Shown piece after piece: positions 8,575-30,967 of a DNA stretch of 55,356 nucleotides (its first letter is position 1; each line of letters begins with the position of its first letter). The position numbers and the translations under genes are program-made. Location of the stretch: contig CACAMV010000006.1 of NCBI GenBank assembly GCA_902533695.1, forward strand, positions 1-55,356, in the 5' to 3' direction. The notes below the pieces were generated by a model. The model was not told where the DNA came from, did no database searches, and saw nothing but the letters and a program-made list of their open reading frames with translations. Source of the DNA: an uncultured SAR116 cluster alpha proteobacterium (GTDB lineage Bacteria > Pseudomonadota > Alphaproteobacteria > Puniceispirillales > Marisalimonadaceae).

Positions 8575-9738
8575 TTATTGAACCAATTGTTTTGCAATTA
8601 TAATTTTTTGCAATTCGTTGGTACCTTCTCCTATAGCTAAAAGAGGGGCATCTCTATAATATCGCTCTATGTTATATTCTGGGGAATAGCCAAATCCTCC
8701 ATGTATTCTCATCGCTTCAGTAGCATTAAATAATGCTGTCTCCGTTGCATGCAATTTAGCCATGCCTGCCTGAAGATCTGATCTCTTTCCGCTGTCATAA
8801 GCTTTAGCGGCTTGTTCGGTCAAAAGTCTGGAAGCCTCCAATCTTGTTGCCATTTCAGCTAATTTAATTTGGATAGATTGATGCTGAGAAATTGGTTTAC
8901 CAAAAGTTTTTCTGACTTTTGAATATTCTATTGAATCTTCTAATGCTGCTCTGCCTAAGCCAACTCCTCTAGCTGCCACATTAATTCTTCCTAATTCTAA
9001 ACCTGATAAAATCTGCTGAAGCCCTTTACCTTCTTCTTTACCTATCAAATTTTCCAAAGGTACTTCTATCTGATTAAGTTGAACTTCACCAGTATCTATA
9101 CCTCTATAACCTAGTTTTTTTAATTTTTTAGCGACATATCCTGATTTTTTTTCAACAAGAATTAAACTCATCCCTTTATGCGGTGGACTAATTTCAGAAT
9201 TAGTCTTTGCAAGAACAGCTAACACATCTCCTTGAACAGAGTTAGTAATCCAAGTTTTACTACCATTTATTGTATAGGATTGATTATTCTTTATTGCTTT
9301 AGTTTTTATTGATTGTAAATCTGTTCCACAATCAGGTTCTGTCAGAGCAATCCCACCCCTTAATTCACCTGAAGCAAATTTTGGTAGATAATTCTCTTTC
9401 ATTTCATCAGTTCCGTGTTTTTCAACGGCTGCACACATGATCAGATGTGAATTAAAAATCCCTGAAACCGACATCCAAACTGATGAAACATTTTCAACAA
9501 TCTTAGAGTATGTTACAGCAGATAATCCTAACCCCCCATATTCTTGAGAAATAGTAGCTCCAAACAAGCCTAGTTCAGCCATCTTATCTGCTATGTCTTG
9601 AGGGTATTTATCTTCTGATTCAAATTCTTTTACATATGGCTTAACATCTTTTTCTAAAAACTTATCTACACTACCTAAAATTAATTTTTCATCTTCAGTA
9701 ATATTTTTATCTAATTCTCTTAAGGTTTGCTCATTCAT
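8575..9738 (-). CDS. Acyl-CoA dehydrogenase
   Basis: ALTEPDCGTDLQSIKTKA, KTWITNS, RIHGGFGYSPEYNIERYYRDAPLLAIGEGTNEL. Confidence 0.92.
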   Translation of the reverse strand: MNEQTLRELDKNITEDEKLILGSVDKFLEKDVKPYVKEFESEDKYPQDIADKMAELGLFGATISQEYGGLGLSAVTYSKIVENVSSVWMSVSGIFNSHLIMCAAVEKHGTDEMKENYLPKFASGELRGGIALTEPDCGTDLQSIKTKAIKNNQSYTINGSKTWITNSVQGDVLAVLAKTNSEISPPHKGMSLILVEKKSGYVAKKLKKLGYRGIDTGEVQLNQIEVPLENLIGKEEGKGLQQILSGLELGRINVAARGVGLGRAALEDSIEYSKVRKTFGKPISQHQSIQIKLAEMATRLEASRLLTEQAAKAYDSGKRSDLQAGMAKLHATETALFNATEAMRIHGGFGYSPEYNIERYYRDAPLLAIGEGTNELQKIIIAKQLVQ

Positions 9739-9762: not shown

Positions 9763-11136
9763 TTAGTTACTTAATTCAAATAAAGATTTTATTGAGTTAG
9801 CATTATCAATTCTTAGCATGAACTTTTTAAGTTCATCTGACTTGCCTTCAGACAAATAAGGGCTAGTAAGTCCATCAAACTTATCTTCAAACTCTTGATC
9901 AGTCATAAAATTCTCTGGATCACCTTTTGGAATTTTTACAAACTTTTCATACACCTTTCCAGAAACTTTAATTTTAACATTTGCACTCATGTATTTAGGA
10001 CAACATTCCTCAGCCTGTTTATCTTGAGAAACATTAACCTTTTTACAGAGATCTAAAATATCCTCATTTTTCAAATTTAATTTGTAATCATCCCAAGTAA
10101 AGCTACCATTCTTCAAAACTAAAGCAGCACAAAAAGGCATTGAGAACTGACCATCAACTACATTTTCTGGATTTTGTTTTTCTTCAAGAGGACATCCTAT
10201 AATATTTAACGCAGTCTCTGATAAACCAACGTCAACGTCTTCTAAATCATTAATATGAAAATTTATTTCTTTTTTTAATTCTAATAAACCATCAATCGCA
10301 GCATGACTGTACCTGCAAGATGGATAGGGCTTGACACCTAGGTTTAAAGTTTCAAATTTTTCTCCAAGTCCTTCTAAAGCTTTTGATAAATCTCCACCAG
10401 AAACAAAAGAATTAAGGTATCCCCACTTTCCTTCAAATGCTTCTTTCGGCCCCTTAAAACCTTCGCCTGCTAATATAGCTGAATTTAGTCCATTTTGTGC
10501 CGCTTGCCCAACATGAGATCTTTTTGTCCAAGAGCCGTCATTCAAAAACTGCATTGAGCCAGAAGACTGACTTAATGCTATTCCAAAAGCAGAAATGAAT
10601 TGTTTCTTACTCAAACCAACAATGTAACCAGCAGCAGCTGCAGCGCCAAAAATACCACAAGTTGCAGTTGGATGAAATCCTCTCTTATAATGAGCTGAAG
10701 AACCGCCTGCAAGACCTAATCGTATCTGTATCTCATAACCTAACACGCAGGCTGTAATCAATTCTTGTCCTGAACAATTCTTCATTTGAGCGGCTGCAAA
10801 AGCGGAAGCTAAAATTGGTGCACTAGAGTGAAGTGATGCTTCAGCATGAGTATCATCAAAATCCAATGAATGGGCCAAAGTACCATTTATTAATGCAGCT
10901 GCACTTGGAACATATTTACTCTTGTCTGAAAAAACTTGGCAATTTCCATTATTTAAATCAAGTTTATTTACAGCTGAAATAAGACTGTTTGTAGACTCAA
11001 CATCATGCCTAGCCCTTATAATTATGCCTACTGTATCTAATATTAAAAGTTTTGCTCTCTTTACCACTTTCTCAGGAAGTATTTCAAATTTTATTTTTTC
11101 ACAAAATTCTGCCATTGTTTCAGTTACATTTTTCAT
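9763..11136 (-). CDS. MmgE/PrpD family protein (paralog 1)
   Basis: HSLDFDDTHAEASLHSSAP, RGFHPTATCGIFGAAAAAG, SWTKRSHVGQAAQNG. Confidence 0.9.
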   Translation of the reverse strand: MKNVTETMAEFCEKIKFEILPEKVVKRAKLLILDTVGIIIRARHDVESTNSLISAVNKLDLNNGNCQVFSDKSKYVPSAAALINGTLAHSLDFDDTHAEASLHSSAPILASAFAAAQMKNCSGQELITACVLGYEIQIRLGLAGGSSAHYKRGFHPTATCGIFGAAAAAGYIVGLSKKQFISAFGIALSQSSGSMQFLNDGSWTKRSHVGQAAQNGLNSAILAGEGFKGPKEAFEGKWGYLNSFVSGGDLSKALEGLGEKFETLNLGVKPYPSCRYSHAAIDGLLELKKEINFHINDLEDVDVGLSETALNIIGCPLEEKQNPENVVDGQFSMPFCAALVLKNGSFTWDDYKLNLKNEDILDLCKKVNVSQDKQAEECCPKYMSANVKIKVSGKVYEKFVKIPKGDPENFMTDQEFEDKFDGLTSPYLSEGKSDELKKFMLRIDNANSIKSLFELSN

Positions 11137-11220
11137 GTTTAAACCTGTTATTAAAAATATTATTTATTTCATCATAAAATAAATTATAATGATTTTTTAA
11201 ATTTATTGAATTTATTTATT

Positions 11221-12501
11221 ATGTCTGAACCAAGTTTTTTGACTGCAACAGAAGCTCTAAAATTAATTAAGCAAAAAAAGTTAAGTCGCTATGAGTGGGT
11301 CCAAAGTTGTATAAAAAGAATTAAAGAAAGAGAAAGCATTACTCAAGCTTGGACTTTTGTAAATTTTGATGAAGCTTTAATACAAGCGAAAAAATTTGAT
11401 GATATGACAAGTGAAAAATTTGGCATTCCTATAGGAGCTAAAGATATTATTGATGTGGCTGGCATGCCAACACAAATGGGCACATCCTTTTACCAACACA
11501 ACATACCCGCAAGAGATGCTGCAAGCATTGCAATATCAAAGGATGCAGGATGTATTGTAATCGGCAAGACAGTTACAACTGAATTAGGACACAGACATCC
11601 AGGTCCAACTACTAATCCTCATAATCCAAAATATACTCCTGGAGGATCTAGTTCTGGTTCAGCCGCATCCGTAGCTGATTTCATGGTCCCAATTACCTTT
11701 GGAACTCAAACAACAGGTTCTATCATAAGACCCGCTGCATATTGTGGAGTCATAGGTTATAAGCCAACTTATGGTGACTTTGATAAATCAGGTATTTTAC
11801 CAAACTCTCCTTCATTAGACACATTAGGATTAATAGCTCGATCTATTGAAGATTTACAATTGATGAGAAGTATTGTGATTGAAGAAATAATAAATTCAGA
11901 AAAAAATATAGATGTTAAAAAAATAAAATTTGCTTTTGTTAGGACTCCACATTGGGAAGATCAAACTGATGAATGTACTAAAAATGAACTTGAAAAGTTT
12001 TTTGAATCATTAAAAAAACTTAATTTTGATATTCATGAACAAAACCTTGATGAATTAATTATTGAGGCAAGTGAAATACATACAAAAATAAGTGGTTTTG
12101 AATTCAAAAGATCGATATCTGCCGAAAGAATAAATCATTTTTCTAAATTAAGTGAAATTTTAAGAAATGGAAGACTAAGTGATGGAATCAATATGTCACT
12201 CCTAACATATAGAAAACTCCAAAAACAGTCAGAATACAATAAATTAAGAATTGAAGAAAAATTAAAACAATATGATTGTATTATTACGCCTAGTGCTCCT
12301 GGGGAAGCATTAAATGCCTTAGATTATACCGGATCACCAATATTTAATACAACTTGGACCTTAGCAGGGATGCCTGCTATTACTTTACCATTATTCAAAA
12401 GTAAAAATAATTTACCGATTGGATGTCAAATCATCAGTCACCGTAATAATGATGAATTTCTTCTAGAGTTAGGAAAATTTCTATTAAATGAATTTAGTTA
12501 A
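11221..12501 (+). CDS. Amidase (amidase signature family)
   Basis: GIPIGAKDIIDVAGMPTQMGTS, TPGGSSSGSAASVADFMVPITFGTQTTGSIIRPAAYCG (Ser-Ser-Lys family); ATG at 11221 preferred over TTG at 11206. Confidence 0.9.
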   Translation: MSEPSFLTATEALKLIKQKKLSRYEWVQSCIKRIKERESITQAWTFVNFDEALIQAKKFDDMTSEKFGIPIGAKDIIDVAGMPTQMGTSFYQHNIPARDAASIAISKDAGCIVIGKTVTTELGHRHPGPTTNPHNPKYTPGGSSSGSAASVADFMVPITFGTQTTGSIIRPAAYCGVIGYKPTYGDFDKSGILPNSPSLDTLGLIARSIEDLQLMRSIVIEEIINSEKNIDVKKIKFAFVRTPHWEDQTDECTKNELEKFFESLKKLNFDIHEQNLDELIIEASEIHTKISGFEFKRSISAERINHFSKLSEILRNGRLSDGINMSLLTYRKLQKQSEYNKLRIEEKLKQYDCIITPSAPGEALNALDYTGSPIFNTTWTLAGMPAITLPLFKSKNNLPIGCQIISHRNNDEFLLELGKFLLNEFS

Positions 12502-13777
12502 AATGTGAAGTTATAACCATACTCGGTAAAGTCAGAGCAAGAGCAGGAAATAACAACACTATAATTAATACAACCGTATCAGAAATACAAAATGGAAATG
12601 AACCCTTAATGACAGTAGTCACAGGTAGCCCTGTAACACCACTCACTGCAAACAAATTTAATCCTACTGGAGGAATAACACTTCCAATTTCTATAGCAAG
12701 TGCTGTCAAAATTCCTAGATGAACTGGGTCAACACCTAAAGCTAATGCAACTGGAAAATATATTGGTACAGTCAAGAGCAATATAGCTACCCCTGTTAAA
12801 AACATGGACAAAAATAATAAAGAAGCCATTAAAGTAAACAAGAAAGCATGTTTAGATAGCCCTAATGTACCAACCCATTCAGCAATTTGTTGGGGCCATC
12901 CCATATTTGCAAGATAAAACTGAAAAATACCTACACACCCTAACAAAAAGAATACTACTGCAGTTAGATTCATAGTCCTTATTGTAGTTGGCATTACTTC
13001 TTTCAGAAAAGTCTTTCTTTTAAAAACAACTCCGTAAAATAATGCATAAAAAGCAGCAATAGCTCCAGCTTCTGTCGGTGTAAATAACCCTCCATATAAA
13101 CCACCTAGAATTATAACAGGCATAAGAAGAGCAGGCCAAGCTTCCTTAAAAGACAACCAAACTTCGCACAAATCAAATTTTCCTCGAGGTAATTTTATAA
13201 ACAACGACACACTTACTATAATTACTGCATCACTAATAGCTAACATTATGCCAGGAACAACCCCGGCAAAAAATAAATCAACAATTGACCATTCAGTTAT
13301 TACACCAAATAAAATAAGGGTTATACTTGGGGGAATTAACAAAGCTATACCGCCAGCAGAAGCGATTACCCCTGCAGCCATCCATTGTGGGTAACCTCTT
13401 TTTATTAATTCAGGATACGCTATCACACTCATAGCAGCAGCCATTGCTGTGGACGAACCTGAAATAGCTCCAAACATAACAGCAGCCAGTAAAGTTGCAT
13501 AAGCAAAACCTCCAGGAACCCAGCCTATCAAAGCGTCAGCAAATTTAAAAATACCAGCAACTAAACCCGTTCTTTCCATTAAAAACCCTGCATAGATAAA
13601 AAATGGAATTGCTACTAAAGTATATTTCCCAACAAAATTAAAAAAAGCTTCAAACAAAGTACTAAAGGTAAGAAAATCATCAAAGAGAACCATCAGACAT
13701 GTGGCACCAGCTAAAGCTATGCCAATTGGTACACCAGAAAACAAAAAACCAAATAGCGAACCCCCTAATCCCCACAT
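12494..13777 (-). CDS. dctM: TRAP transporter large permease (DctM)
   Basis: 427 aa; FFIYAGFLMERTGL, GAISGSSTAMAAAMSVIAYPELIKRGYP, LFTPTEAGAIAAFYAL, IEIGSVIPPVGLNLF. Confidence 0.93.
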   Translation of the reverse strand: MWGLGGSLFGFLFSGVPIGIALAGATCLMVLFDDFLTFSTLFEAFFNFVGKYTLVAIPFFIYAGFLMERTGLVAGIFKFADALIGWVPGGFAYATLLAAVMFGAISGSSTAMAAAMSVIAYPELIKRGYPQWMAAGVIASAGGIALLIPPSITLILFGVITEWSIVDLFFAGVVPGIMLAISDAVIIVSVSLFIKLPRGKFDLCEVWLSFKEAWPALLMPVIILGGLYGGLFTPTEAGAIAAFYALFYGVVFKRKTFLKEVMPTTIRTMNLTAVVFFLLGCVGIFQFYLANMGWPQQIAEWVGTLGLSKHAFLFTLMASLLFLSMFLTGVAILLLTVPIYFPVALALGVDPVHLGILTALAIEIGSVIPPVGLNLFAVSGVTGLPVTTVIKGSFPFCISDTVVLIIVLLFPALALTLPSMVITSHFN

Positions 13778-13795
13778 AATAATTTTCCTATAAAA

Positions 13796-14347
13796 TTACA
13801 CATCAGTTGCAACCTCAACACGTGATGTAAAATGTTCACCTTTCTTATAGCTGATAATATCTTCAATTGTTTGAAGAAATGCTACTAATGCCATTAAACT
13901 GAATCCAACTAACAGCGCAAAATGGAAGGGCCATAATGGTATCCACAAACTTTGGGTTTTTTCTTCCATTTCGTATGAATATTCAACTGTAGACCAACCT
14001 GTAACGGATATAGAGAAACAAAAAATAAAAATAATCACTGAAACAAATATCTTACTAGCACCTACAGTTCTATAAAATCCTTTTGCATCTAGCAATTGAA
14101 GAAAAGCACTCATCACTAGATGATTTCTATTAATTTGTGTCACGCAAATAAATAAAGAAACAGAAAAAACCATTGCATAAATTACAGCATCTTGTCCCCA
14201 CTCGAATACTACGCCAAAAATATATCTTCTAATTATTTCAGCCAATGCAAATAAAACCATTACAATCATGGTAATCGAACTTAAACGTCCTAAAACATAT
14301 TCAACAACTGATTTAATTTTTGTAGAAATTCTTAAAAAGTCAGACAT
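13796..14347 (-). CDS. dctQ: TRAP transporter small permease (DctQ)
   Basis: 183 aa, 4 TM; located between dctP and dctM. Confidence 0.88.
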   Translation of the reverse strand: MSDFLRISTKIKSVVEYVLGRLSSITMIVMVLFALAEIIRRYIFGVVFEWGQDAVIYAMVFSVSLFICVTQINRNHLVMSAFLQLLDAKGFYRTVGASKIFVSVIIFIFCFSISVTGWSTVEYSYEMEEKTQSLWIPLWPFHFALLVGFSLMALVAFLQTIEDIISYKKGEHFTSRVEVATDV

Positions 14348-14374
14348 TTACAATTTTTTTAAATGTTTTTTAAT

Positions 14375-14403
14375 AAAGAGGGCTGAAAATTTCAGCCCTC
14401 TTT
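14375..14403 (-). terminator. Stem-loop in the dctP-dctQ intergenic region (attenuator/partial terminator/RNA stabiliser)
   Basis: Perfect inverted repeat AAAGAGGGCTGAAA-A-TTTCAGCCCTCTTT (14-bp arms, 1-nt centre). Confidence 0.75.
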
Positions 14404-14412
14404 AAATTAAAT

Positions 14413-15564
14413 TTATTTTCTTGATTTCTTTTTGTACAAAGAAGTCCCTTTTGCATATTTTGCAAAATCGGCTGCAAATGCACTACAATCAGTCTTCTCA
14501 AGCGGATCTGATCCCATCGGATTAGCTTTAACTAAGGCTTTTGCTTCAGCAGTAAACTGATCTACAAGTTTATCTCCTGCATCATCAACTTTAGTTTTAA
14601 TCCAGTCGTTAGTTGCACCACCTTCAGCTTTTGCAATCACTGCAGCTTCTGCTGGACTCATTACATAAATACCTGCAGCTGATTTATCAGTTACTTTGTA
14701 TTTATCAACTAAACGCTTATCATTACAAAAGTTTATAGCTTTTTGAAATGGAATAAAATCATTTACTACTATATCTGTAAGAGCTTTTTTCTGAGCACTA
14801 GATAATTTTGCTAACCACTTATTTGATGCGGCAAAATAATAATAGTCCCCAACGATACCATTTATACCAGCAACTGTAAAATAAGGTGCTTGTTCTTTAG
14901 TTGCATTAAAACCACCTAAGCTTGTTAACAAACCATCTATAACACCTGTTTGAAGTGCAGGAGGTACGTCACCAAAAGCCATAGTTGTTGCATTAGCGCC
15001 TAAAGCACCTAACAATGCATTCTCAGCAGGTCCCATACTTCTAACTTTTTTTCCTTTAAAGTCAGATGGTACCAAAAATCTACTTTTAACAGCACCAGCA
15101 CCCATATACATACTTAAATGCCCAGAACCCATAACTGTAATACCATGTTTTTTATTATAGATACTAGTTATAGCCTTATATGTTTTTGTGCCATCAAGTC
15201 CGTTAATTGCACCAGGTGTTGTTAACTTTCCAGCACCTGTTAAAACGCTTGATGATGGCTCAACACTAGCAGCCTTACCAAACTGTCCAGTCATCATTTC
15301 TAAATTTCCTTGTTTCAAGGCTTTCATGCCTTGAGGAACATTGTAAAGAGACTTAGCCCAGTAAATCTGAACCTTACTTCCAGGTATTTTTTTCTCTATA
15401 GTTTCAGCAAAGAACATCTCTGCTATTGCAGCTGGGTGTGGTGGACCTGAGTGGTCTGAAGCCCAACGCATTTTGATAGGCTCTACAGCTTGAGCAGAAC
15501 CAAGGGAAAAAACAGCAGCAGCAGTAGCCGCAATTGCTATTATAAATTTCTTTTCTAATCTCAT
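14413..15564 (-). CDS. dctP: TRAP transporter substrate-binding protein (DctP)
   Basis: Signal peptide MRLEKKFIIAIAATAAAVFSLGSAQA; GKKVRSMGPAENALLGALGANATTMAFGDVPPALQTGVIDGLLT. Confidence 0.92.
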   Translation of the reverse strand: MRLEKKFIIAIAATAAAVFSLGSAQAVEPIKMRWASDHSGPPHPAAIAEMFFAETIEKKIPGSKVQIYWAKSLYNVPQGMKALKQGNLEMMTGQFGKAASVEPSSSVLTGAGKLTTPGAINGLDGTKTYKAITSIYNKKHGITVMGSGHLSMYMGAGAVKSRFLVPSDFKGKKVRSMGPAENALLGALGANATTMAFGDVPPALQTGVIDGLLTSLGGFNATKEQAPYFTVAGINGIVGDYYYFAASNKWLAKLSSAQKKALTDIVVNDFIPFQKAINFCNDKRLVDKYKVTDKSAAGIYVMSPAEAAVIAKAEGGATNDWIKTKVDDAGDKLVDQFTAEAKALVKANPMGSDPLEKTDCSAFAADFAKYAKGTSLYKKKSRK

Positions 15565-15674
15565 GAATATCCTCCGAGTAATAGATCTAATTTAGAATTA
15601 TTAAAAACACTAAAACATATAATTAGCTCTAATCAAAGGTTTTTTAGTTGATATGTTATCTAAATGATAAAATA

Positions 15675-16877
15675 TTAAATAATACCTTTATTTTTCAATT
15701 GGTTAACATCTTTCTTGGACAAGCCAATTTTGTTATAAATTTCATCATTATGCTCTCCAAGAATTGGTGCCGTAGAATCACTAAATTCTTCTTGATTAAA
15801 TCTAATTGGTGTTTTTAATAATTTAATGACTTTGTCATCCTTTGTTTTGAGTTTATGTATATTATTTCTTTCTTTTACAAAATCATTTTCAAGAGCTTCC
15901 CTAACATTTAAAATTGGTGCTGCAGGGACATTTCCACCAAAAATTTCAAGCCATTCTTCAGTTTTTCTTTTCATCAACTCTTTGTCTAAAATCTCAGTAA
16001 GTAACTCCCTCTGTTCAAGCCTTAATTTAAAATTTTTAAATCTTTTATCTTTGGCTAAGTCCTCTCTATCTATGGATTTACATAAAGCTGGCCAAAAATT
16101 TTCTTTATTACACATTAAATAAACCCATCCATTTAAAGTTTTGTATAATTGACATGGAACTAACACTGGATGAGCGGATCTATCAAGTCTTTCATTTTCA
16201 TAACTTGAATTCATTGTCCATGCCGCTAAATAATTTTGATTGAATAAAGCCGTATCAAATAAACTTACATCTATATCTCTTCCAATTCCTGTATCCCTTG
16301 CAGATAATACCCCACTAATTAAACTAAATGCCATGGTTAGCCCTGACATATAATCAACAACAGATAAACCAAACCTTGCTGGTGGCCCCTCAGGCTCTCC
16401 AGTTAGGGAAAAATAGCCAGCTTCTGCCTGCATAAGATAATCAAAGCCTGGCCAATTTTTTCTAGAACCTTCCCTGCCGTATGCGGAACAATGAGCGCAA
16501 ACGATTTTGTTATTAAAAAGCTTAAGTTTATCATAAGTTATTCCAAGTTTTTCAGGAACATCTCCTCTTAAATTATTGCAAACAGCGTCAGAATATTTAA
16601 CAAGTTTTTTTAAAACTTCTTTACCTTCTTGAGACAAAATATCTAAAGTTATACTTTTTTTATTTCGGTTAAGAGCTTGAAAAAAAATGCTTGAAACAGA
16701 ATCTTTCTCTCCTTCAAGAAAATAAGGACCTACATCTCTTAGATAATCACCTGTAGTCCCAGCCGGCTCTATTTTAATAACTTCTGCCCCTAAATCAGAA
16801 AGATATTGAGTTCCAAAAGGTCCAGCCCCATACTGTTCAAATGCTAAAACTTTTAATCCTTCAAGTGGTAAACTCAT
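15675..16877 (-). CDS. CaiB/BaiF family (class III) CoA-transferase
   Basis: LPLEGLKVLAFEQYGAGPFGTQYLSDLGAEVIKIEP, DYLMQAEAGYFSLTGEPEGPPARFGLSVVDYMSG. Confidence 0.92.
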   Translation of the reverse strand: MSLPLEGLKVLAFEQYGAGPFGTQYLSDLGAEVIKIEPAGTTGDYLRDVGPYFLEGEKDSVSSIFFQALNRNKKSITLDILSQEGKEVLKKLVKYSDAVCNNLRGDVPEKLGITYDKLKLFNNKIVCAHCSAYGREGSRKNWPGFDYLMQAEAGYFSLTGEPEGPPARFGLSVVDYMSGLTMAFSLISGVLSARDTGIGRDIDVSLFDTALFNQNYLAAWTMNSSYENERLDRSAHPVLVPCQLYKTLNGWVYLMCNKENFWPALCKSIDREDLAKDKRFKNFKLRLEQRELLTEILDKELMKRKTEEWLEIFGGNVPAAPILNVREALENDFVKERNNIHKLKTKDDKVIKLLKTPIRFNQEEFSDSTAPILGEHNDEIYNKIGLSKKDVNQLKNKGII

Positions 16878-16882
16878 AATTT

Positions 16883-17419
16883 TTATTTTTTTGTTTTTTC
16901 TATTATCGCATCGACAACACTGTGTCCTTTTTTTGCCACTAAAAAAGATCTAACCATGTCCATTACAATTATATTTTCTTGGTTTTTACCTATATGTTTC
17001 ACTTTTACAATACCCTGAGTAGGTCGAGATTTTGACTCTCTTTTATCTAACACTTCTGTCTCAGAATATAAGGTGTCACCTACAAAAACTGGTTCAGGCA
17101 ATTTTATTTCTTCCCATCCCAAATTCGCTATTGCTTTTTGACTTGTTCCACTCACACACATGCCTGTAATTAAAGCCAACGTAAAGGCTGAATTAACCAA
17201 ATATTTTCCAAACTCGGTTTGAGCTGCATAATTAGCATCGAAATGAACGGGATGTGTATTCATAGTTAAATTTGTAAACCATATGTTATCAGCTTCAGTG
17301 ACTGTTCTTCCAGGCCAATGCTCATAAACATCTCCAACTTTGAAATCTTCAAAGTATCGACCAGGATCTTCCCTATATCTATTAGGTCCTACTTTTCTAA
17401 TACCATAACCTTCTGTCAT
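16883..17419 (-). CDS. MaoC family hydratase/dehydratase
   Basis: RYFEDFKVGDVYEHWPGRTVTEADNIWFTNLTMNTHPVHFDANYA...FVGDTLYSETEVLDKRES. Confidence 0.88.
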   Translation of the reverse strand: MTEGYGIRKVGPNRYREDPGRYFEDFKVGDVYEHWPGRTVTEADNIWFTNLTMNTHPVHFDANYAAQTEFGKYLVNSAFTLALITGMCVSGTSQKAIANLGWEEIKLPEPVFVGDTLYSETEVLDKRESKSRPTQGIVKVKHIGKNQENIIVMDMVRSFLVAKKGHSVVDAIIEKTKK

Positions 17420-18232
17420 TTAAACCTCTCTAATTATAATCATTTTTGCTCGTTCTAAAACAGGAGCGTCAACCATTTTACCCTCATAGTTAAATGCTCC
17501 TGTTCCAGCAGTTTTTGAGGCTTCAACTACCCCTTTTGCCCAAATCAATTCTTCATCAGTTGGTTTATAAGCATCATGAATAGGTTTGATCTGATCTGGA
17601 TGAATAGCAAATTTACCCTTAAAACCCATAGACTTTATGAGTTTAGTCTCCTCAAAACACCCTTCCGGATCTTTGAAATTCAGCCACACACCATCTAGGG
17701 CAATAGTATTATATAATGTTGCCGCATTTACAATTTTTCCTCTAGAATATGAAAGGCTTGCCACACCCATATCTCCTCCAGTCATTGCAGTATAATCTGC
17801 AGAACCAAAACCAATTCCAGAAAAATTTATACCCTGAAAATCCCATCTATCTATATCAGCTATACCTCTGGGCGTTTCTATCTGAGGCAAAATTAAAACA
17901 GAATGCCCCAAATCTGACAAAAACTTTTTACACTCTAATGATGATTCGATTTTTGGAATAGCAACAGAATATGGTAAATACGAAATTGATTTTAACATTT
18001 TTATATCTTTCTTATAATCCTCTGTATCTAAACCATTTATCCTTATTAAAAACTTTTCTTGTTGATTATTAAAATTTGAATTAGCAAAATTTATAAAATT
18101 TGCTCTTCCTATATCTTTTTTGTCCTTAGCCAAACCATCTTCCAAGTCAAAAATAACTTTGTCTGCCCCAGAAGTTATGGCTTTAGGTATTCTTTCAGGT
18201 TTGTCTAGAGGTAAAAATAAAATACTTCTCAT
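17420..18232 (-). CDS. HpcH/HpaI aldolase / CitE-like CoA-ester lyase
   Basis: RSILFLPLDKPERIPKA, DLEDGLAKDKK, LPQIETPRGI, GSADYTAMTGG, GKFAIHPDQIKPIHDAY. Confidence 0.88.
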   Translation of the reverse strand: MRSILFLPLDKPERIPKAITSGADKVIFDLEDGLAKDKKDIGRANFINFANSNFNNQQEKFLIRINGLDTEDYKKDIKMLKSISYLPYSVAIPKIESSLECKKFLSDLGHSVLILPQIETPRGIADIDRWDFQGINFSGIGFGSADYTAMTGGDMGVASLSYSRGKIVNAATLYNTIALDGVWLNFKDPEGCFEETKLIKSMGFKGKFAIHPDQIKPIHDAYKPTDEELIWAKGVVEASKTAGTGAFNYEGKMVDAPVLERAKMIIIREV

Positions 18233-18241
18233 AAAATTCCT

Positions 18242-19564
18242 TTAATTGATTAATAAATTCAATATATCCTTAGCAAAAAACTTTTTTGGATTTTCTAAAA
18301 TTGAAGAAAGTTTTTTTGAAACATTCTCAGACAAAAGTGAAGTGGATTTAGCTTTTATTTTATTTTGTATAGTTTCATTTTCTATTTTATCTGATAAATT
18401 ATGTTTATTTTCAAAAACATTTGTATCATTTTTTATCCTTATTAAAGCCTCAGTATTAGACAAAGTTTCATTTGGTATAACCTCAACTTTATCTCTTGTT
18501 TTTATAAGGTTTGGATCAAAACACATTTTGTCATTGTAACTATCCAATCTTGCAGTATCAATTCCATGTAAAGACATAGCAGCTGTCAATCTGTAAGAAA
18601 ATTTAGACTCTAGTCCAGTTTTAGGGCTTTCTATATTACATACCTTTAACCATGAAGGTTGAGTTTCAATAGAAATTTTCTCAATAGATTCAGGGTTAAA
18701 ATTGTTTTTAATTTTTAATTCATCTAATGCTTCAAGAAACGCGTGCAGCCCATGACAGCAAGCATGAAATTTATACTTAATTTCTGGAAATAAATAATTA
18801 TTTCCTAAACCTTCTATAGCTTCATCAGGATATTTTTCATTCCAGCCATGTGTTTTAAGGAAGCCCTGTGAACACTCAATTCCATCCTCACAACTAATAA
18901 AACCTAACTTTGAAAGTTTTGCCGCTTCAATTCCATTTGATGCTGCAATACCAGCATGAAAAGGTTTTCCCATAGTTCCAAATTGTGATTTCAAACCAGA
19001 CGCTCTAGTTGAAACTATTCCAAACGCATTCTCAATTTGCTCTAAATTAAGCTTCAACAATTTTGAAGCAACAGCTGTAGCTCCAAAAGCTCCGCTGGTA
19101 GCAGTCTGATGGAATCCCTTATTATAGTGAGAATAACCAAGTATATGTCCTAATCGGGTAGAAACTTCTACCCCACACATATAAGCAAAAATCATTTCAT
19201 CTATAGTTGAGTTCAGCTCTTCTCCAATTGCTAGAGCAGTTGGAAAAGCGCTTGCGGTAGGATGCCCGGTAAATAGAAAATGAGTATCATCATAATCCAA
19301 AGCATGACCAATAGTGCCATTCACTAAAGCTGCATATTTTGAGGACATAGCTAGCCCATTACTAATAATTTTAGAGTTTCCACATGAACTTTCATCTTCA
19401 ACTAATTTAGTCACTATTTGAGAAACTGGTTCTTTTCTCCCTGCATAAGCAACTCCAGCCCAATCCAACATAGACATTCTTGAAAAAAAAATCATTTCTT
19501 CATTAAAATCATCTGCTTTTGCATTATACACAAACTCACTAAATTTTTTAGTCAATGAAACCAT
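18242..19564 (-). CDS. MmgE/PrpD family protein (paralog 2)
   Basis: HALDYDDTHFLFTGHPTASAFP, KGFHQTATSGAFGATAVASKLL, TMGKPFHAGIAASNGIEAAKL. Confidence 0.9.
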   Translation of the reverse strand: MVSLTKKFSEFVYNAKADDFNEEMIFFSRMSMLDWAGVAYAGRKEPVSQIVTKLVEDESSCGNSKIISNGLAMSSKYAALVNGTIGHALDYDDTHFLFTGHPTASAFPTALAIGEELNSTIDEMIFAYMCGVEVSTRLGHILGYSHYNKGFHQTATSGAFGATAVASKLLKLNLEQIENAFGIVSTRASGLKSQFGTMGKPFHAGIAASNGIEAAKLSKLGFISCEDGIECSQGFLKTHGWNEKYPDEAIEGLGNNYLFPEIKYKFHACCHGLHAFLEALDELKIKNNFNPESIEKISIETQPSWLKVCNIESPKTGLESKFSYRLTAAMSLHGIDTARLDSYNDKMCFDPNLIKTRDKVEVIPNETLSNTEALIRIKNDTNVFENKHNLSDKIENETIQNKIKAKSTSLLSENVSKKLSSILENPKKFFAKDILNLLIN

Positions 19565-19580
19565 TTGTAACTCCTATTAT

Positions 19581-20441
19581 CTAAAATTTTGCTTCAGCTT
19601 GCATTGTAACTCCAGCGCTTTCAGTTGCTCCCCAGCAACTTACTGAACCATCATCATTCTCTTTTGCGCCAATAATATATTCAGAATTTGCAAAAACCGG
19701 TGCCATAACTTTATGCGCAAAAGATTTTACAGTTTTGCCAGTCAATTTTTCTGCAGCTCTAAGAAGATAAGTAGCTTGTAAAGGTCCATGAACAATTAAG
19801 TCATGATAATTTTCTTCATTTACAGAATAAGGATGGTCGTAGTGAATTCTATGACCTACAAACCCTATAGCTGAGTATCTAAACAAAATAGTTGGATGCA
19901 TAAATATTTTCTCAACAAAGTCTGCGTTTTCAGGTATTGTGTTTGAAAACCCTGATCCACCTCCAGCTTTACTAACATCTCTATAAACAATATTATGTTT
20001 TTCATGAAGGGCTAAATTACCTTCTACCAAATAATCATATTCTGCAGTAACGAAACAAAGTAACCCTGTTCTTCCTTCTTTTAATTTTATATCTCCAACA
20101 GTAGATTTTTTTATTACCTTGTCACCAACTCTAATTGGACTAGAGACTTCAATCTGGCTTCCTGCCCACATTCTTCTGGGCAAGGGAACTGGAGGCAAAA
20201 ACTCTCCTCTTGCTGGATGAGAGTCAACTCCCAATTCGTCGTTTTTAACTAAATTCCATCCTAACATCCAATGCAAACCAGAAGTAACAGGTTCGCCTAA
20301 TTCAGGTTTACCTGGATCCATGTTTAAAGTTGCACGATATCTTTGCTCTACAATTGGGGTTACATAATCTGTGACAAGATCTTCCTTGCCTAACCATTTG
20401 TTTAAATGGTTTATATCAATTTTATCTGTATTTACTGACAT
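19581..20441 (-). CDS. HTD2/FAS1-like hydratase (mesaconyl-C4-CoA hydratase-like, MaoC N-terminal domain type)
   Basis: 286 aa; LHWMLGWNLV, SHPARGEFLPPVPLPRRMWAGSQIEVSSPIRVGDKV, FRYSAIGFVGHRIHYDHPYS, LIVHGPLQATYLL. Confidence 0.8.
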   Translation of the reverse strand: MSVNTDKIDINHLNKWLGKEDLVTDYVTPIVEQRYRATLNMDPGKPELGEPVTSGLHWMLGWNLVKNDELGVDSHPARGEFLPPVPLPRRMWAGSQIEVSSPIRVGDKVIKKSTVGDIKLKEGRTGLLCFVTAEYDYLVEGNLALHEKHNIVYRDVSKAGGGSGFSNTIPENADFVEKIFMHPTILFRYSAIGFVGHRIHYDHPYSVNEENYHDLIVHGPLQATYLLRAAEKLTGKTVKSFAHKVMAPVFANSEYIIGAKENDDGSVSCWGATESAGVTMQAEAKF

Positions 20442-20644: not shown

Positions 20645-21433
20645 ATGAAAGATATAATTTTGTATAAAATTGATAAAAGAGGCTTGGCAGAAGTTAAACT
20701 GAACCGCCCTGAAAAGAATAATGCATATAATTCTGATATGATAAATCAATTAATAGATGTTTTTAAAAAACTAAATTTAGATCAATCTGTAAGAGTTGTA
20801 ACTATTAGCGGAAATGGAAAACATTTTCAAGCTGGGGCAGATCTTGAATGGCTTAAATCAATAGGGAAATTAAGCCCTGAAAAAAATTATGAAATATCAA
20901 AAAATACAGCTGAAGCCATTAGAGGCTTAACTCTTTTTCCTAAACCAGTAATATCTATAATACATGGTGGTTGTTTTGGAGGAGGAACAGGCATTGCTGC
21001 TGCATCAGATATTGTTTTAGCATCAAAAAACTCAATCTTTTCTATATCTGAAGCAAGATGGGGTGTAACGGCAGGAATAATAATACCTCATTTAAACAAA
21101 TCAATTCAACTAAGAAACGTTAGAAGATATGCCTTAACATGTGAAAGGTTTGACGCCTATGAAGCCAAAAGAATTGGTTTGGTACATGAAGTGTTTGAAG
21201 AACATGAAATTGATGAAAAGAAAAATATGATCATCGAACAATTATTATTATCCGAACCTAAAGCTGTTGCTTTAACAAAAAAAAGAAGTTTAATAGAAGC
21301 AGGCTTGGTGTTAAGTGATGAAAAATTTCATGAATTAGTTCAAGAACATTCTGAAAAAAGAATGACTGATGAAGCCTACGAGGGATTAATGAGTTTTACC
21401 GAAAAAAGAAACCCCAACTGGTATAAATCCTAA
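20645..21433 (+). CDS. Enoyl-CoA hydratase/isomerase family protein
   Basis: LNRPEKNNAYN, GNGKHFQAGADLEWL, IHGGCFGGGTGIAAASDIVLAS. Confidence 0.92.
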   Translation: MKDIILYKIDKRGLAEVKLNRPEKNNAYNSDMINQLIDVFKKLNLDQSVRVVTISGNGKHFQAGADLEWLKSIGKLSPEKNYEISKNTAEAIRGLTLFPKPVISIIHGGCFGGGTGIAAASDIVLASKNSIFSISEARWGVTAGIIIPHLNKSIQLRNVRRYALTCERFDAYEAKRIGLVHEVFEEHEIDEKKNMIIEQLLLSEPKAVALTKKRSLIEAGLVLSDEKFHELVQEHSEKRMTDEAYEGLMSFTEKRNPNWYKS

Positions 21434-21443
21434 GAGTTTTATT

Positions 21444-22790
21444 ATGCCAGCTTTAGTTACAAATTCTAAAATATGGGGGGAGATGTTTGGCACCAAAGAA
21501 ATGCATGATATTTTTTCTGACGAAACAACAGTTCAATTATATTTAGATGTAGAAGCTGCACTTGCAAGGGCTCAATCTAAATTAGGAATAATACCAAAAG
21601 AAGCCGGAGAAAAAATTTCACATGCTGCTAATATTAAATTGATTGATTGGGATACCTTAAAAAAACGGACTGAGATTGTTGGGTACCCAATTTTACCAAT
21701 TGTAGAACAATTAAGTAAAAATGTTGCTGATGAATATGGTCAATATTGTCACTGGGGTGCTACAACACAAGATATAATGGACACTGCAGATGTTTTGCAA
21801 ATGAAAAAAGGGTTGAATTTGCTCTCTATGGATTTAAAGGCCATAGCAAATGCTTTATCTAAAATTGTTAAAAAATATATAAACACACCCATGGCAGGAC
21901 GTACACACCTTCAACACGCATTACCAATTCCATTTGGTTATAAAGCTGCCACATGGTTATCTGGTATAGATAGACATATTCAAAGATTAGATGAAATTAA
22001 AATTAGATTATTTAATATTTCTTTTTTTGGTGCTGCAGGGACACTTGCTTCCCTTGGTGAAAGAGATGGGTTAAACACACAAATTGAATTAGCAAAAGAA
22101 CTTAATTTAAAAGTTCCCGATGTTAGTTGGCACTCCATAAGAGATAATTTTTGTGAAACAACTGGTTGGTTGGCTTTAGTAGGATCTTCATTAGGTAAAA
22201 TCGCATATGACGTTATGTTAATGATGCAAACAGAAACACAAGAGGTCTCTGAACCTTTTCTTCATGGGAGAGGTTCATCTTCAACAATGCCACAAAAACG
22301 CAATCCAATATCATCAGAAGTAATACTAGCTTGTTCAAAAATTTTGAGGGAATATCACTCTTCAATGCTAGATGCTATGGTTCTTGATCATGAAAGAGCT
22401 ACAGGTCAATGGCATGTAGAATGGTCGTCTATCCCAAATGCATTTATAATTTCATCAGCATCATTAAGCTCTGCAAAATTCCTTTTAGATGGACTAAAAG
22501 TTTCTCCTAAAAATATGAAAGAAAATATGGATAAAACTAAAGGTTTGATTGTTGCTGAGTCCGTAATGATGTCTTTAGCCCCCTATATGGGAAGGCAGGT
22601 TGCTCATGATTTAGTTTACGATTGTTGCAGAAAATCTTTGAAAGATGGTGAGTCTTTTTTAGATTCTCTTTTATCCATAAAAGAAATTTCAAATATATTT
22701 GATAAAAAGAAATTAAAAAACATAATCAATCCAAAAAATTATCTGGGAGCGTCCGTGTCCATGGCTCAAAAGCTTTTAGAAAAGAGATAA
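21444..22790 (+). CDS. Class-II fumarase/aspartase superfamily lyase, 3-carboxy-cis,cis-muconate cycloisomerase (PcaB)-like
   Basis: LDVEAALARAQSKLGIIP, HWGATTQDIMDTA, GRTHLQHALPIPFGYK, HGRGSSSTMPQKRNPISSE. Confidence 0.85.
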   Translation: MPALVTNSKIWGEMFGTKEMHDIFSDETTVQLYLDVEAALARAQSKLGIIPKEAGEKISHAANIKLIDWDTLKKRTEIVGYPILPIVEQLSKNVADEYGQYCHWGATTQDIMDTADVLQMKKGLNLLSMDLKAIANALSKIVKKYINTPMAGRTHLQHALPIPFGYKAATWLSGIDRHIQRLDEIKIRLFNISFFGAAGTLASLGERDGLNTQIELAKELNLKVPDVSWHSIRDNFCETTGWLALVGSSLGKIAYDVMLMMQTETQEVSEPFLHGRGSSSTMPQKRNPISSEVILACSKILREYHSSMLDAMVLDHERATGQWHVEWSSIPNAFIISSASLSSAKFLLDGLKVSPKNMKENMDKTKGLIVAESVMMSLAPYMGRQVAHDLVYDCCRKSLKDGESFLDSLLSIKEISNIFDKKKLKNIINPKNYLGASVSMAQKLLEKR

Positions 22791-22805
22791 TCAAATAGTC
22801 TGTTA

Positions 22806-23222
22806 ATGAAAATCTTAATGCCTAAAAATGAACTAGAGATATTTATGGAAAAGGAGTTTCCCCAATTAAGCAAAAGTTTTAAAATATTAAATCTAGATTT
22901 AGGTTCGATTTCTATTGAAATGAATATTAGAAATGAACACCTTAGACCTGGCAATACCATATCTGGACCTACTATGTTTTTGCTTGCAGATATAAGTTTC
23001 TATTTAGTAACACTTAGCTTGATAGGCCCTAAAAGTTTAACTGTTACAACTAATTGCTCTATAAATTTTTTAAGAAAACCAAAAAACCATAACCTAACTA
23101 GCAAAGCAAGAATTTTGAAAATTGGAAAAACATTAAGTGTTGGTGATGTATTGATATACTCTATAGACGAAACTAAACCAGTAGCACATGCCTCTTTAAC
23201 TTATTCAATTCCAAAAAATTAA
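22806..23222 (+). CDS. PaaI family thioesterase (hotdog fold)
   Basis: RNEHLRPGNTISGPTMFLLADISFY...TTNCSINFLRKP. Confidence 0.75.
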   Translation: MKILMPKNELEIFMEKEFPQLSKSFKILNLDLGSISIEMNIRNEHLRPGNTISGPTMFLLADISFYLVTLSLIGPKSLTVTTNCSINFLRKPKNHNLTSKARILKIGKTLSVGDVLIYSIDETKPVAHASLTYSIPKN

Positions 23223-25290: not shown

Positions 25291-26100
25291 ATGAGTTTTG
25301 TTGAAACTGAAATTAATGGGCAGATCATTACAATAAGATTGAATCGTCCGGAAAGATTAAATGCACTTAGCACAGTTATTAGAGAAGGTATGGCTAAAGC
25401 TTTTACCCGTTTTGATAAAGATGAAAACTTAGAAGTCGCCATTTTAACTGGAACAGGAAGAGGGTTTTGTGCTGGTGAAGACATGAAGGAATCAGTTGAA
25501 AGAGGAATTGCTGGATCTCCAAAAGAAATGGTTGAAAAAAATTTAGTGAATCCGTTTCAAAATGGAACACTTCAAAAACCTGTAATTGCTGCTGTAAATG
25601 GTTTTGCGATGGGTGGTGGATTTATGCTTGTTGAAAGAACAGATTTAAGGATTGCTGTTAAAGATGCTGTTTTCGAAATGTCTGAAGCAAAGCGCTGGCT
25701 GCTTGGAGGTTACAATCACGGTCACTACGGAAATTTACCTCACCCCATAGCAACTGAAATGGCTTTTGGGTATAGAATTTCAGCCGAAAGAATGTATCAA
25801 GTAGGCTTTGTCAATCGATTGGTGGATGAAAAAGATTTAATGAGTGAAGCCAACTCCATGGCAGAACATTTGTTAACACTTCCGCCAGCAGCAAGAGTTA
25901 ACACACTCTATATGATGAAACATATGGCTCCAAAAATTCCTACTAACATTTCAGACTTAGCGGAAAAACTTCATCTTCATGGAGACACAGAAGATAGAAT
26001 GGAAAGCAGAAGGGCTTTTGCAGAAAAAAGAAAGCCTAATTATAATGGGTGGTTAAATTCAGAAGATCGTTATAACCTTCCAAAATTAGAAGAAAAATAG
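25291..26100 (+). CDS. Enoyl-CoA hydratase/isomerase family protein
   Basis: IRLNRPERLNALS, GTGRGFCAGEDMKE, NGFAMGGGFMLV. Confidence 0.92.
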   Translation: MSFVETEINGQIITIRLNRPERLNALSTVIREGMAKAFTRFDKDENLEVAILTGTGRGFCAGEDMKESVERGIAGSPKEMVEKNLVNPFQNGTLQKPVIAAVNGFAMGGGFMLVERTDLRIAVKDAVFEMSEAKRWLLGGYNHGHYGNLPHPIATEMAFGYRISAERMYQVGFVNRLVDEKDLMSEANSMAEHLLTLPPAARVNTLYMMKHMAPKIPTNISDLAEKLHLHGDTEDRMESRRAFAEKRKPNYNGWLNSEDRYNLPKLEEK

Positions 26101-26109
26101 AGGCATGAA

Positions 26110-27321
26110 ATGATTGAAAATAATGGAGCTCTTTCAGATCTTAGAATAGTAGCTTGCTCGACAGCGCAAGCGGGCACAGTACCCTACATGCTCATGGCAG
26201 ATCTTGGTGCAGAGGTAATAAAAATTGAGACTCCTGGAAAAGGTGATATGAATAGAAAGTCTGGTTATCTAATGGGTTCAACAGGATCTTTTTTTGAAAC
26301 TAATAACAGAGGAGTAAAAAGTCTTACGCTAAACCTAAAGTCAGATAAAGGTCAAAAAATACTTCATGAGTTAGTAAAGGATGCTGACATTTTTGGACAA
26401 AACTTTAGACCTGGAGTTGCTGAAAAACTAAATTTTGATTATGAAACCTTAAGTAAAATAAACCCAAAAATAGTTTATGCTTCTGTTTCAGCATATGGAC
26501 CTGATGCTCCTGATGGTAATTTACCAGGAACTGATGCTGTCGGACAGGCTTTAAGTGGTATTGCTGAGGCATATTCAATACCCGGGATCAATTTAAGAAC
26601 AGGTGTAGCCTCAGTCGCTGATGAAAGTTGTGCTATTTTAACATTTGGAGGAATTTTAGCAGCTTACATTAATGCTCAAAAAACAGGTAAAGGACAAAAA
26701 TTAGAAACATCTCTTGTCGGAAGCGCCTTCAGACTTCTGGGCTGGACTATGACAACATCAATGTGGAGCAACAAACCCCCTATAACTGGAGCAAGGATAA
26801 ATGGAACTAGAGAAAAGCCTGGAATAGCAGCCTGCTTTAACGATATAGATGACAAACCATTTGCCCTTCAATTGAGCCCAGAAAATTGGTCAGTAGCAAT
26901 GAAAGCACTTAATTTTTATGATATTCTTGAAAAAGAAAATTTAATAGACCTTGGGCTTGCTTTTGAAGCTGAACAGAAAAAAATAGATATTTTAAACAAA
27001 CTTGCTGATTTATTTTCAAAACAGAAAAGAGATCATTGGATATCTATTTTGAGGAATGCTGACATGATTTCTACACATGTAAATACTATGCTGGAGGCCT
27101 CTAATGATCCAAATATTAAAGAAAATAATTATGTAACTGAAGTTTGGTACCCAGAATTAAACAAAAACATGAAAGTTCACGGCACACCTTGGAAGTTTTC
27201 AAAAACACCAGCAAAGATTAAAATTGCTCCTAAACTAGGCGAACACAATTCTGAAATACTTTCAAATTTAGGTTACAGTGATGAAGAAATAAAAAGTTTA
27301 AAAGAGGATAAAATTATTTAA
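26110..27321 (+). CDS. CaiB/BaiF family CoA-transferase
   Basis: LSDLRIVACSTAQAGTVPYMLMADLGAEVIKIETPGKGD; typical domain order and C-terminal LGEHNSEIL. Confidence 0.92.
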   Translation: MIENNGALSDLRIVACSTAQAGTVPYMLMADLGAEVIKIETPGKGDMNRKSGYLMGSTGSFFETNNRGVKSLTLNLKSDKGQKILHELVKDADIFGQNFRPGVAEKLNFDYETLSKINPKIVYASVSAYGPDAPDGNLPGTDAVGQALSGIAEAYSIPGINLRTGVASVADESCAILTFGGILAAYINAQKTGKGQKLETSLVGSAFRLLGWTMTTSMWSNKPPITGARINGTREKPGIAACFNDIDDKPFALQLSPENWSVAMKALNFYDILEKENLIDLGLAFEAEQKKIDILNKLADLFSKQKRDHWISILRNADMISTHVNTMLEASNDPNIKENNYVTEVWYPELNKNMKVHGTPWKFSKTPAKIKIAPKLGEHNSEILSNLGYSDEEIKSLKEDKII

Positions 27322-27920: not shown

Positions 27921-29012
27921 TTGTCAATCAATAATAACAAAATTAAAAATATTTCTTGTTACTATCTAAATTTAGATCTGATAAAGCCCTACAAATTATC
28001 ATATAAAACATTTTATAATTTTAAACCGTTTTTAATAAACATAATAGATAATGAAGGAAGAGAAGGGTGGGGTGAGCAACACATTTCCCCAGGTTCAAGC
28101 TTTGAAAGCAGAGAACTTGGGTGGAATTTTATCCATAATCTAGCTGAGAAAGTTCTTAATAAGAACATAGATACTGCAAAAAGAATAGTTTTACAAAATG
28201 CCAACAAAAGTCCAGTTGCCTCAACTTGTGTCTATACAGCTATTGAAATGTTAGAAGAAAATAAAATTTTAAAACAAAAGAAGACTATAAAATCTGAAAT
28301 ATTAACCTCATTCAATTCTGATGATGAAGAAGAAATTAAAGAAGAATTAGATCAATTGGAAGAGCTTGGATTTAAAACCTTTAAAATAAAAGTTGGTAAA
28401 AACCTTAACGATGACATAAAGAGAGTTCAAACAATTCAAAAACATTTGCATGATAGAGGACAAATTAGGATTGATGCTAACAGAGGCTATACTGAAAAAG
28501 AGGGATGTTATTTTGTCAAATCATTAGATCCCTTTGGCATTGAATTGTTTGAACAACCCTGTGCTTCAAAAAATTGGGAAGCAAATGCTAATGTGGCTAA
28601 AATCTCAAAAATACCTATCATGCTTGATGAACCAATTTGCAGCTTAAAAGATATCGAAAGAGCTTCAAAAATTAAGGGGATAAAATATTGTAAATTAAAA
28701 CTAAAACGATTTTATTCTCTTGAATTGCTAAAAGAAGCAATTGTGTTTGCACATAAAAAAGGAATTCAAATAGTATTGGGTGACGGACTAGGGGGTATAA
28801 TAAACTGCTGGATGGAAGCAATGGTTGCCAACAACCTTATTTTTAAAGCTGGTGAGTACAACGGCTTGATGAAAATAAAAAAAGAATTTAATTATATAAA
28901 AAATCCACTTAAATTTGAGAAAGGACAGCTAATTATTGAAAAAAACTGGCACCCCATTATTAATACAGAAAAATTATTTGCCTTGACCGACTATCAGTTT
29001 GAATTAGGATAA
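27921..29012 (+). CDS. Enolase superfamily (muconate-lactonising/dipeptide epimerase-like) enzyme
   Basis: FKIKVGK (KxK), RIDANRGYT, GIELFEQPC, IMLDEP, CKLKLKR: MLE-subgroup catalytic/metal ligand pattern; TTG start. Confidence 0.82.
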   Translation: MSINNNKIKNISCYYLNLDLIKPYKLSYKTFYNFKPFLINIIDNEGREGWGEQHISPGSSFESRELGWNFIHNLAEKVLNKNIDTAKRIVLQNANKSPVASTCVYTAIEMLEENKILKQKKTIKSEILTSFNSDDEEEIKEELDQLEELGFKTFKIKVGKNLNDDIKRVQTIQKHLHDRGQIRIDANRGYTEKEGCYFVKSLDPFGIELFEQPCASKNWEANANVAKISKIPIMLDEPICSLKDIERASKIKGIKYCKLKLKRFYSLELLKEAIVFAHKKGIQIVLGDGLGGIINCWMEAMVANNLIFKAGEYNGLMKIKKEFNYIKNPLKFEKGQLIIEKNWHPIINTEKLFALTDYQFELG

Positions 29013-29030
29013 TCCAAAAAAGGAATAATT

Positions 29031-29882
29031 GTGAAATTCAAAAATAGTAAGAGTTCACTAGGTGGCAAAATTTTAAATTTAGACCTAAATAAAAAAATTA
29101 ATTCTAAAGAAATTTATGCAATTAAAAATTTTGTTAATCAAAGATTAGTTGTTCTTATAAGAAATCAAGTTATTGATGACTATAAATTAAAAGAATTTAG
29201 TAGATTATTTGGTGATTTAGATCCCCCTGCTGCAAACCCTTATGGAGTAAACTTTCTTCCTGAGCACCCCGAAATTAACGTTATTTCTAATGTAAAAAAT
29301 GATGATGGCATTCCGATTGGGAACTTAGGTGATGGTGAAGCTACATGGCATGCTGATATGACTTATTTGGAAACCCCACCAAAATATGGCATTTTGTATG
29401 CATTAGAAGTCCCTAAAAATCAAGGTAATACTCATTTTGCTGATATGCATGCAGCTTATAAAAATTTACCAAATAATTTAAAGAATAAAATTGATGGAAA
29501 GTTTTTGATACATGATTCATCACATAATAGTGCTGGGATGTTAAGAAAAGGTTATGAAGAATTTTCAGATCCAAGAAAAACTCCTGGAGCCAGACACCCT
29601 ATAGTTTTAACTCACCCAGAAAATAATAAAAAAAGATTATTCTTAGGCAGACGACCTTATGCCTATGTATTAGGAATGAAAATCGAAGACAGTGAAAAAC
29701 TATTAGATGAAATATGGAAACACGCTACTCAAAATCAATTCACATGGACCCAAAAATGGGAAAAAGGTGACTTATTAATTTGGAAAAACTTATATTTACT
29801 TCACAAAAGAGATGCCTTCGATCCCCAAACCAGAAGAATAATGCACCGTACGCAAATAAAAGGTGATAATAAGTTAGTTTAA
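29031..29882 (+). CDS. TauD/TfdA family Fe(II)/2-oxoglutarate-dependent dioxygenase
   Basis: TWHADMTY (HxD) and RRIMHRTQI (distal His); GTG start. Confidence 0.9.
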   Translation: MKFKNSKSSLGGKILNLDLNKKINSKEIYAIKNFVNQRLVVLIRNQVIDDYKLKEFSRLFGDLDPPAANPYGVNFLPEHPEINVISNVKNDDGIPIGNLGDGEATWHADMTYLETPPKYGILYALEVPKNQGNTHFADMHAAYKNLPNNLKNKIDGKFLIHDSSHNSAGMLRKGYEEFSDPRKTPGARHPIVLTHPENNKKRLFLGRRPYAYVLGMKIEDSEKLLDEIWKHATQNQFTWTQKWEKGDLLIWKNLYLLHKRDAFDPQTRRIMHRTQIKGDNKLV

Positions 29883-30956: not shown

Positions 30957-30967
30957 TTAAAATAAAG

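Follow-up and report, generated by a model that had tools for sequence, protein, structure and literature searches.

The window analysed here is a 55,356-nucleotide stretch of contig CACAMV010000006.1 (assembly GCA_902533695.1) from an uncultured bacterium of the SAR116 cluster (Alphaproteobacteria; Marisalimonadaceae). A sequence-only reading of the window had described eight consecutive minus-strand genes at 12494-20441, encoding a TRAP transporter and CoA-dependent enzymes, as a candidate operon for assimilating an itaconate-type dicarboxylate. The open reading frames lie exactly there, in the transcription order HTD2, PrpD1, CitE, MaoC, CaiB1, DctP, DctQ and DctM, and are separated by 16, 9, 0, 5, 110, 65 and 18 bases, respectively (Table 1). 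Pfam and NCBIfam confirmed the named families; the HTD2 gene, faint in Pfam (FAS1_DH_region, 36 bits), was confirmed by its best solved relative, the itaconyl-CoA hydratase of Pseudomonas aeruginosa (PaIch; 8khg, E 1e-51). The catalytic set extends past the border at 12494: genes for an acyl-CoA dehydrogenase (ACAD) and a second MmgE/PrpD protein (PrpD2) lie just downstream, are equally conserved and join the set by phylogeny.

Table 1. Genes of the operon and of its downstream extension.
Feature	Position	Strand	Remarks
HTD2-like hydratase, Ich family	19581-20441	minus	RYSAIGFVGHRIHYD; Val replaces conserved Asn
PrpD1, MmgE/PrpD protein 1	18242-19564	minus	predicted C2 epimerase, 2-substituted succinate; Pfam MmgE_PrpD
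CitE-like acyl-CoA lyase	17420-18232	minus	predicted citramalyl-CoA-type lyase; Pfam HpcH_HpaI
MaoC hydratase, RipB type	16883-17419	minus	Pfam MaoC; N-x4-H dyad intact
CaiB1, CaiB family III CoA-transferase of MaoC module, not Ict orthologue	15675-16877	minus	Pfam CoA_transf_3
TRAP substrate-binding protein (SBP)	14413-15564	minus	Pfam DctP
DctQ, TRAP small permease	13796-14347	minus	Pfam DctQ
DctM, TRAP large permease	12494-13777	minus	Pfam DctM; TIGR00786 above cut-off
Amidase-signature enzyme	11206-12501	plus	Pfam Amidase; separates the two cluster halves
PrpD2, MmgE/PrpD protein 2	9763-11136	minus	predicted C2 epimerase; partner of MaoC/ACAD/CaiB1
ACAD, acyl-CoA dehydrogenase of MaoC module	8575-9738	minus	ACAD tree; outside PA0879 clade

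In a search for conserved neighbourhoods, the block was kept in the same order in all 12 related loci, which represent four genera of one family. Common to these loci are also ACAD and PrpD2 downstream and the opposite-strand amidase gene between the halves. A divergent enoyl-CoA hydratase/lyase pair lies upstream across the family loci, the stretch read stopping before the pair in some of them. Between this genome (G000) and a congener (G002), the ratio of non-synonymous to synonymous substitution rates (dN/dS) of the eight genes ranged from 0.02 to 0.25, with values of 0.02-0.09 for the enzymes, 0.06-0.07 for DctM and DctP and 0.25 for DctQ; that of the amidase was 0.13. The operon is real and functional. 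Among 142 genomes of the class, relatives of HTD2 were found in 45 and relatives of MaoC in 37. Outside the family, ten of these genomes have an HTD2 match together with a MaoC match of 57% identity or more, and in none of the ten are the genes near each other: they are on different contigs in nine, several of the ten being draft assemblies, and 157 kb apart in the tenth (G074). The joining of these genes in one hybrid operon seems to be a trait of the family.

By comparison of gene kinds, the layout has a characterized counterpart, MmgE/PrpD gene included, in the PA0878-0886 cluster of P. aeruginosa. That cluster encodes an HTD2-like hydratase (Ich), an acyl-CoA dehydrogenase, a lactonase, an MmgE/PrpD protein, a CaiB-type CoA-transferase (Ict), a CitE-type lyase (Ccl) and the IctPQM TRAP transporter (PMC12290011), the full set of names being Ich, Mcd, Rdo, Msi, Ict, Ccl and IctPQM. 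According to PMC12290011, with gene deletions described in PMC9875883, its dehydrogenase is a methylsuccinyl-C4-CoA dehydrogenase (Mcd) and its MmgE/PrpD protein, PA0881, a (S)-(R)-methylsuccinate isomerase (Msi). Itaconate is imported by IctPQM (PMC12599236). The MmgE/PrpD gene, which the sequence-only reading had considered the odd element that might make the pathway new, therefore already has a Pseudomonas counterpart of known function.

Like PA0878-0886, the locus gathers HTD2, MmgE/PrpD, CaiB, CitE and DctPQM genes in one cluster with an acyl-CoA dehydrogenase gene nearby. Unlike PA0878-0886, it adds MaoC, its Ict is on another contig, its HTD2 has Val in place of Asn and its SBP is not IctP-like. 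We used the cluster of P. aeruginosa PA7 (L038) as the reference for orthology tests. The result was divided: among solved structures, HTD2 was nearest PaIch and CitE nearest the P. aeruginosa Ccl (PaCcl), but in phylogenetic trees CaiB1, ACAD, PrpD1 and PrpD2 came from other clades, outside those of Ict, Mcd and Msi. With a CaiB protein that is not Ict, an ACAD outside the P. aeruginosa clade, an HTD2 that has lost its Asn and an SBP without most itaconate-binding residues, the stretch does not hold the "complete" itaconate set first ascribed to it. The easy label "itaconate cluster" is thus corrected, as by orthology just part of the set belongs to the itaconate pathway.

CaiB1 shares 27% identity with PA7 Ict, and its best curated relative is a succinate-glutarate CoA-transferase. 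In the tree, its clade holds only CoA-transferases of MaoC-linked gene sets. Its identification as Ict was rejected, since joining the Ict clade cost 64 in log-likelihood (approximately unbiased (AU) test, p 0.000125). ACAD grouped with the dehydrogenases of MaoC modules and not with PA0879. In genera g2 and g4, true Ict (41-42% identity to PA7 Ict) is flanked by CitE and PrpD1; in g3 and in the genus of this genome, g1, the operon lacks Ict at this position. The gene is kept somewhere in all four genera examined. In this genome, it was found on a second contig (C2:19023-20150; 44% identity to PA7 Ict) beside a second HTD2 with a normal TFN motif. In the stretch of C2 that we read (L124, 9166-11163), this HTD2 adjoins Ict on the opposite strand, with NAD-binding dehydrogenase-like genes beside them and no CitE gene nearby.

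The operon HTD2 does not keep the TFNGHRIHYD site conserved in Ich. All 29 operon HTD2 copies of the family carry RYSAIGFVGHRIHY, in which Thr is replaced by Gly and Asn by Val (GFV vs TFN). By contrast, Asn is kept at the same place in 80 Pseudomonas-group loci and in the readable class-level HTD2 matches, nearly all of which have TFNGHRIHY; four class-level loci fell outside the motif search pattern. By its spacing, we take this Asn to occupy the position of the catalytic Asp/Asn (D/N-x4-H) in hotdog hydratases of the MaoC/PhaJ kind. As a literature search turned up no open structural account of the residues by which PaIch catalyses hydration, the role of the Asn rests on motif alignment. 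The dN/dS of the operon HTD2 (0.05, vs G002) indicates strong purifying selection and suggests that the enzyme is probably altered, not dead. With Ict relocated to C2, where a normal HTD2 adjoins it, and with its own active site changed, the operon HTD2 probably has a modified or auxiliary role at present. In G003 (99% complete), the operon HTD2 is the sole HTD2 found, so hydration there must fall to it or to MaoC. An Asn-to-Val change in a hydratase under strong purifying selection offers a natural experiment in how a hotdog active site works.

The second hydratase, MaoC, keeps N-x4-H in the motif LTMNTHPVHFD and is 61% identical to the ripB-annotated gene of a three-gene rip-type cluster. 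As in RipABC of the Yersinia pestis type, a MaoC of RipB type is found with a CitE-like lyase, the best NCBIfam models being RipB_Ich and RipC_Ccl. Unlike in RipABC, both scores are under the curated cut-offs (MaoC, 233 bits against 340 for RipB_Ich, NF038241; CitE, 163 bits against 375 for RipC_Ccl). The CoA-transferase also differs, being of CaiB family III here and of the acetyl-CoA hydrolase/transferase type at the ripB locus (L145). CitE forms a separate and deep clade in the tree and keeps the core motifs LED, R, E, D and MVDAPV. Its closest solved structure is 8khl (PDB title: acyl-CoA lyase beta chain), which we take to be PaCcl because its residues match PA7 Ccl in L038.

PrpD1 and PrpD2 keep all seven substrate-binding and substrate-processing positions of PA0881, including His102 and Tyr148, with Asp for E91. 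Both proteins therefore carry the features of the two-base epimerase class of MmgE/PrpD proteins (His102, Tyr148 and the carboxylate-binding residues). Tyr148 is the second base of the epimerases; fungal cis-aconitate decarboxylase (CAD) has Ile there. We predict that PrpD1 and PrpD2 are epimerases of 2-substituted succinates. MmgE/PrpD enzymes of known function all use succinate-backbone acids (PMC12290011). In the tree, PrpD1 fell among the PrpD proteins of PrpD-HTD2-CitE-CaiB clusters from order-level relatives. The window encodes a third MmgE/PrpD protein, PrpD3, which has His at 148 instead of the epimerase Tyr. Its gene lies at 27921-34323 (plus strand) with those for a mandelate-racemase-like enzyme, a TauD-type dioxygenase and a complete TctCBA tricarboxylate transporter. 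A TauD protein 57% identical to that of the window adjoins the PrpD-HTD2-CitE-CaiB cluster of one order-level relative (L142, 6954-9662).

PrpD2, MaoC, ACAD and CaiB1 recur without the remainder of the operon. In two class-level genomes (L217 and L222), they form a stand-alone four-gene operon, with identities of 48-51% for PrpD2, 62-64% for MaoC, 63-67% for ACAD and 50-55% for CaiB1; unlike in the window, no HTD2, CitE or TRAP genes lie alongside. A looser set that includes CitE was found on Azospirillum and Caballeronia plasmids. In the stretches read, loci of Variovorax and Aminobacter have homologues of MaoC, ACAD and CaiB1 but no MmgE/PrpD gene. Judged by sequence, these four genes (module B) are a separate unit whose enzyme kinds match the five-gene methylsuccinate pathway step for step, from other clades. 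Tentatively, module B may be a route for 2-substituted succinates that was assembled independently, converged step by step on the methylsuccinate pathway of Pseudomonas and fused with that pathway in this family; the fusion would have freed HTD2 for a new reaction after the loss of its Asn. We hold this fuller account to be possible but less than even in likelihood. The comparison singles out a widespread four-gene module (MmgE/PrpD, RipB-type MaoC, ACAD and CaiB) with a testable substrate class. On two marine Paracoccaceae plasmids (L118 and L119), an HTD2-CitE-CaiB-ACAD cluster lies close to a second set of CitE and MmgE genes that is accompanied by TAXI TRAP genes, and IS6 transposase genes occur within both stretches.

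Our preferred reading, to which we assign a probability of roughly 0.55, is that the locus is a TRAP-fed hybrid operon in which two parallel modules, sharing the importer and CitE, break 2-branched succinates down by a CoA-dependent route, the acid being methylsuccinate, itaconate or a close homologue. Module A, of the P. aeruginosa type, would unite HTD2/Ich, Ict and CitE with an MmgE/PrpD epimerase; module B would provide the PrpD2 epimerase, the CaiB1 CoA-transferase, ACAD and the RipB-type MaoC hydratase. The acid would be taken up by the TRAP importer, its C2 configuration set by an MmgE/PrpD epimerase and its CoA ester made by CaiB1, or in trans by Ict, which in this genus would have departed the operon to contig C2. 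ACAD would then desaturate saturated substrates, MaoC would add water and CitE would cleave the product to acetyl-CoA and a 2-oxoacid such as pyruvate. We infer the substrate and every reaction from the observed gene content, conservation, orthology and motif changes.

The import, CoA activation, hydration and lyase cleavage of a dicarboxylate proposed earlier hold in part. The proximity of HTD2 to PaIch and of CitE to PaCcl, and the presence of Ict in the operons of sister genera, support a CoA-dependent pathway in which a branched dicarboxylate is broken down by hydration and CitE-type cleavage. The SBP is 21% identical to PA7 IctP over 294 residues and departs from IctP at the itaconate pocket of the latter (Lys41, Lys94, Arg169, Gln171, Asn209 and Val234). 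It keeps Arg169 and Lys94 and lacks Lys41, Gln171 and Asn209, the positions being approximate at this identity. A structure prediction of the SBP alone was not used (predicted local distance difference test (pLDDT) score, 32.5). The lack of IctP pocket residues in the SBP is one of several points that weigh against our reading. CaiB1 and ACAD are distant from characterized enzymes (27% and 32% identity, respectively), and no enzyme here scores above the curated thresholds of Ict, Ich or Ccl. The Msi (PA0881) clade, with support of 100/100, excludes PrpD1, PrpD2 and PrpD3. Finally, two module B copies lie near 3-hydroxy-3-methylglutaryl-CoA (HMG-CoA) lyase genes (annotated in L148; recognized by N-terminal sequence in L217), and no tested function for any module B member was found in the literature searched; the acid of module B may therefore differ.

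The acid might indeed be another substituted dicarboxylate, such as an alkylsuccinate with a longer chain, a glutarate-type acid or one released by the neighbouring amidase, the tie to itaconate being ancestral only. The curated relative of CaiB1, the HMG-CoA-lyase neighbours, the differing HTD2 active site and SBP residues, the amidase conserved in place and the recurrence of weak amidases near MaoC modules all point that way. However, the succinate-backbone substrates of all known MmgE/PrpD enzymes (PMC12290011) and the retention of Ict by all four genera examined argue against it, and we regard this alternative as rather unlikely. The locus could also be a plain P. aeruginosa-type itaconate/methylsuccinate cluster, such as occurs in numerous Proteobacteria, in which MaoC is a spare hydratase and all enzymes act on C5 acids, as the shared gene kinds and TRAP genes (PMC12290011) and the true Ict in sister-genus operons and elsewhere in this genome would suggest. 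This is unlikely: strong support places CaiB1 outside the Ict clade and ACAD outside the Mcd clade, the MmgE/PrpD proteins fall outside the Msi clade, the Asn of HTD2 is lost and the SBP mismatches IctP at most ligand positions.

The sequence-only reading had also offered the MmgE/PrpD protein as a decarboxylase feeding itaconate to the pathway, that is, a CAD making itaconate inside the cell. Family resemblance is the sole point in favour of this idea, which we consider highly improbable. The His and Tyr epimerase pair is present in PrpD1 and PrpD2, the Tyr is absent from fungal CAD, CAD is the more distant relative (E 7e-25, against 5e-43 for IDS epimerase), and a TRAP importer argues for an external substrate. 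In the literature searched, the pathway class is known, and we found no description of the combination, of module B or of the altered HTD2. A literature search for links between marine lineages and the use of methylsuccinate or itaconate yielded nothing useful.

Adjoining the operon at 20645-23222 is a divergent, family-conserved trio encoding a crotonase, a lyase of the aspartase/fumarase superfamily near PcaB/PurB and a 4HBT thioesterase. An EDDS-lyase/iminodisuccinate pathway, combining an MmgE epimerase with the lyase at 21444-22790, was considered and rejected: the lyase is PcaB/PurB-like (456 bits) and scored only 81 bits as an argininosuccinate lyase, the branch to which we take EDDS lyase to be nearest. 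Weak homologues of the amidase also lie close to the MaoC modules of plasmids from Tistrella, Azospirillum and Halalkalicoccus. Elsewhere in the window, an enoyl-CoA hydratase and a further CaiB-type CoA-transferase, unrelated to Ict or CaiB1, are encoded at 25291-27321. Two intradiol-dioxygenase-like genes and a gene for an FAD hydroxylase at 37737-40228 suggest aromatic catabolism.

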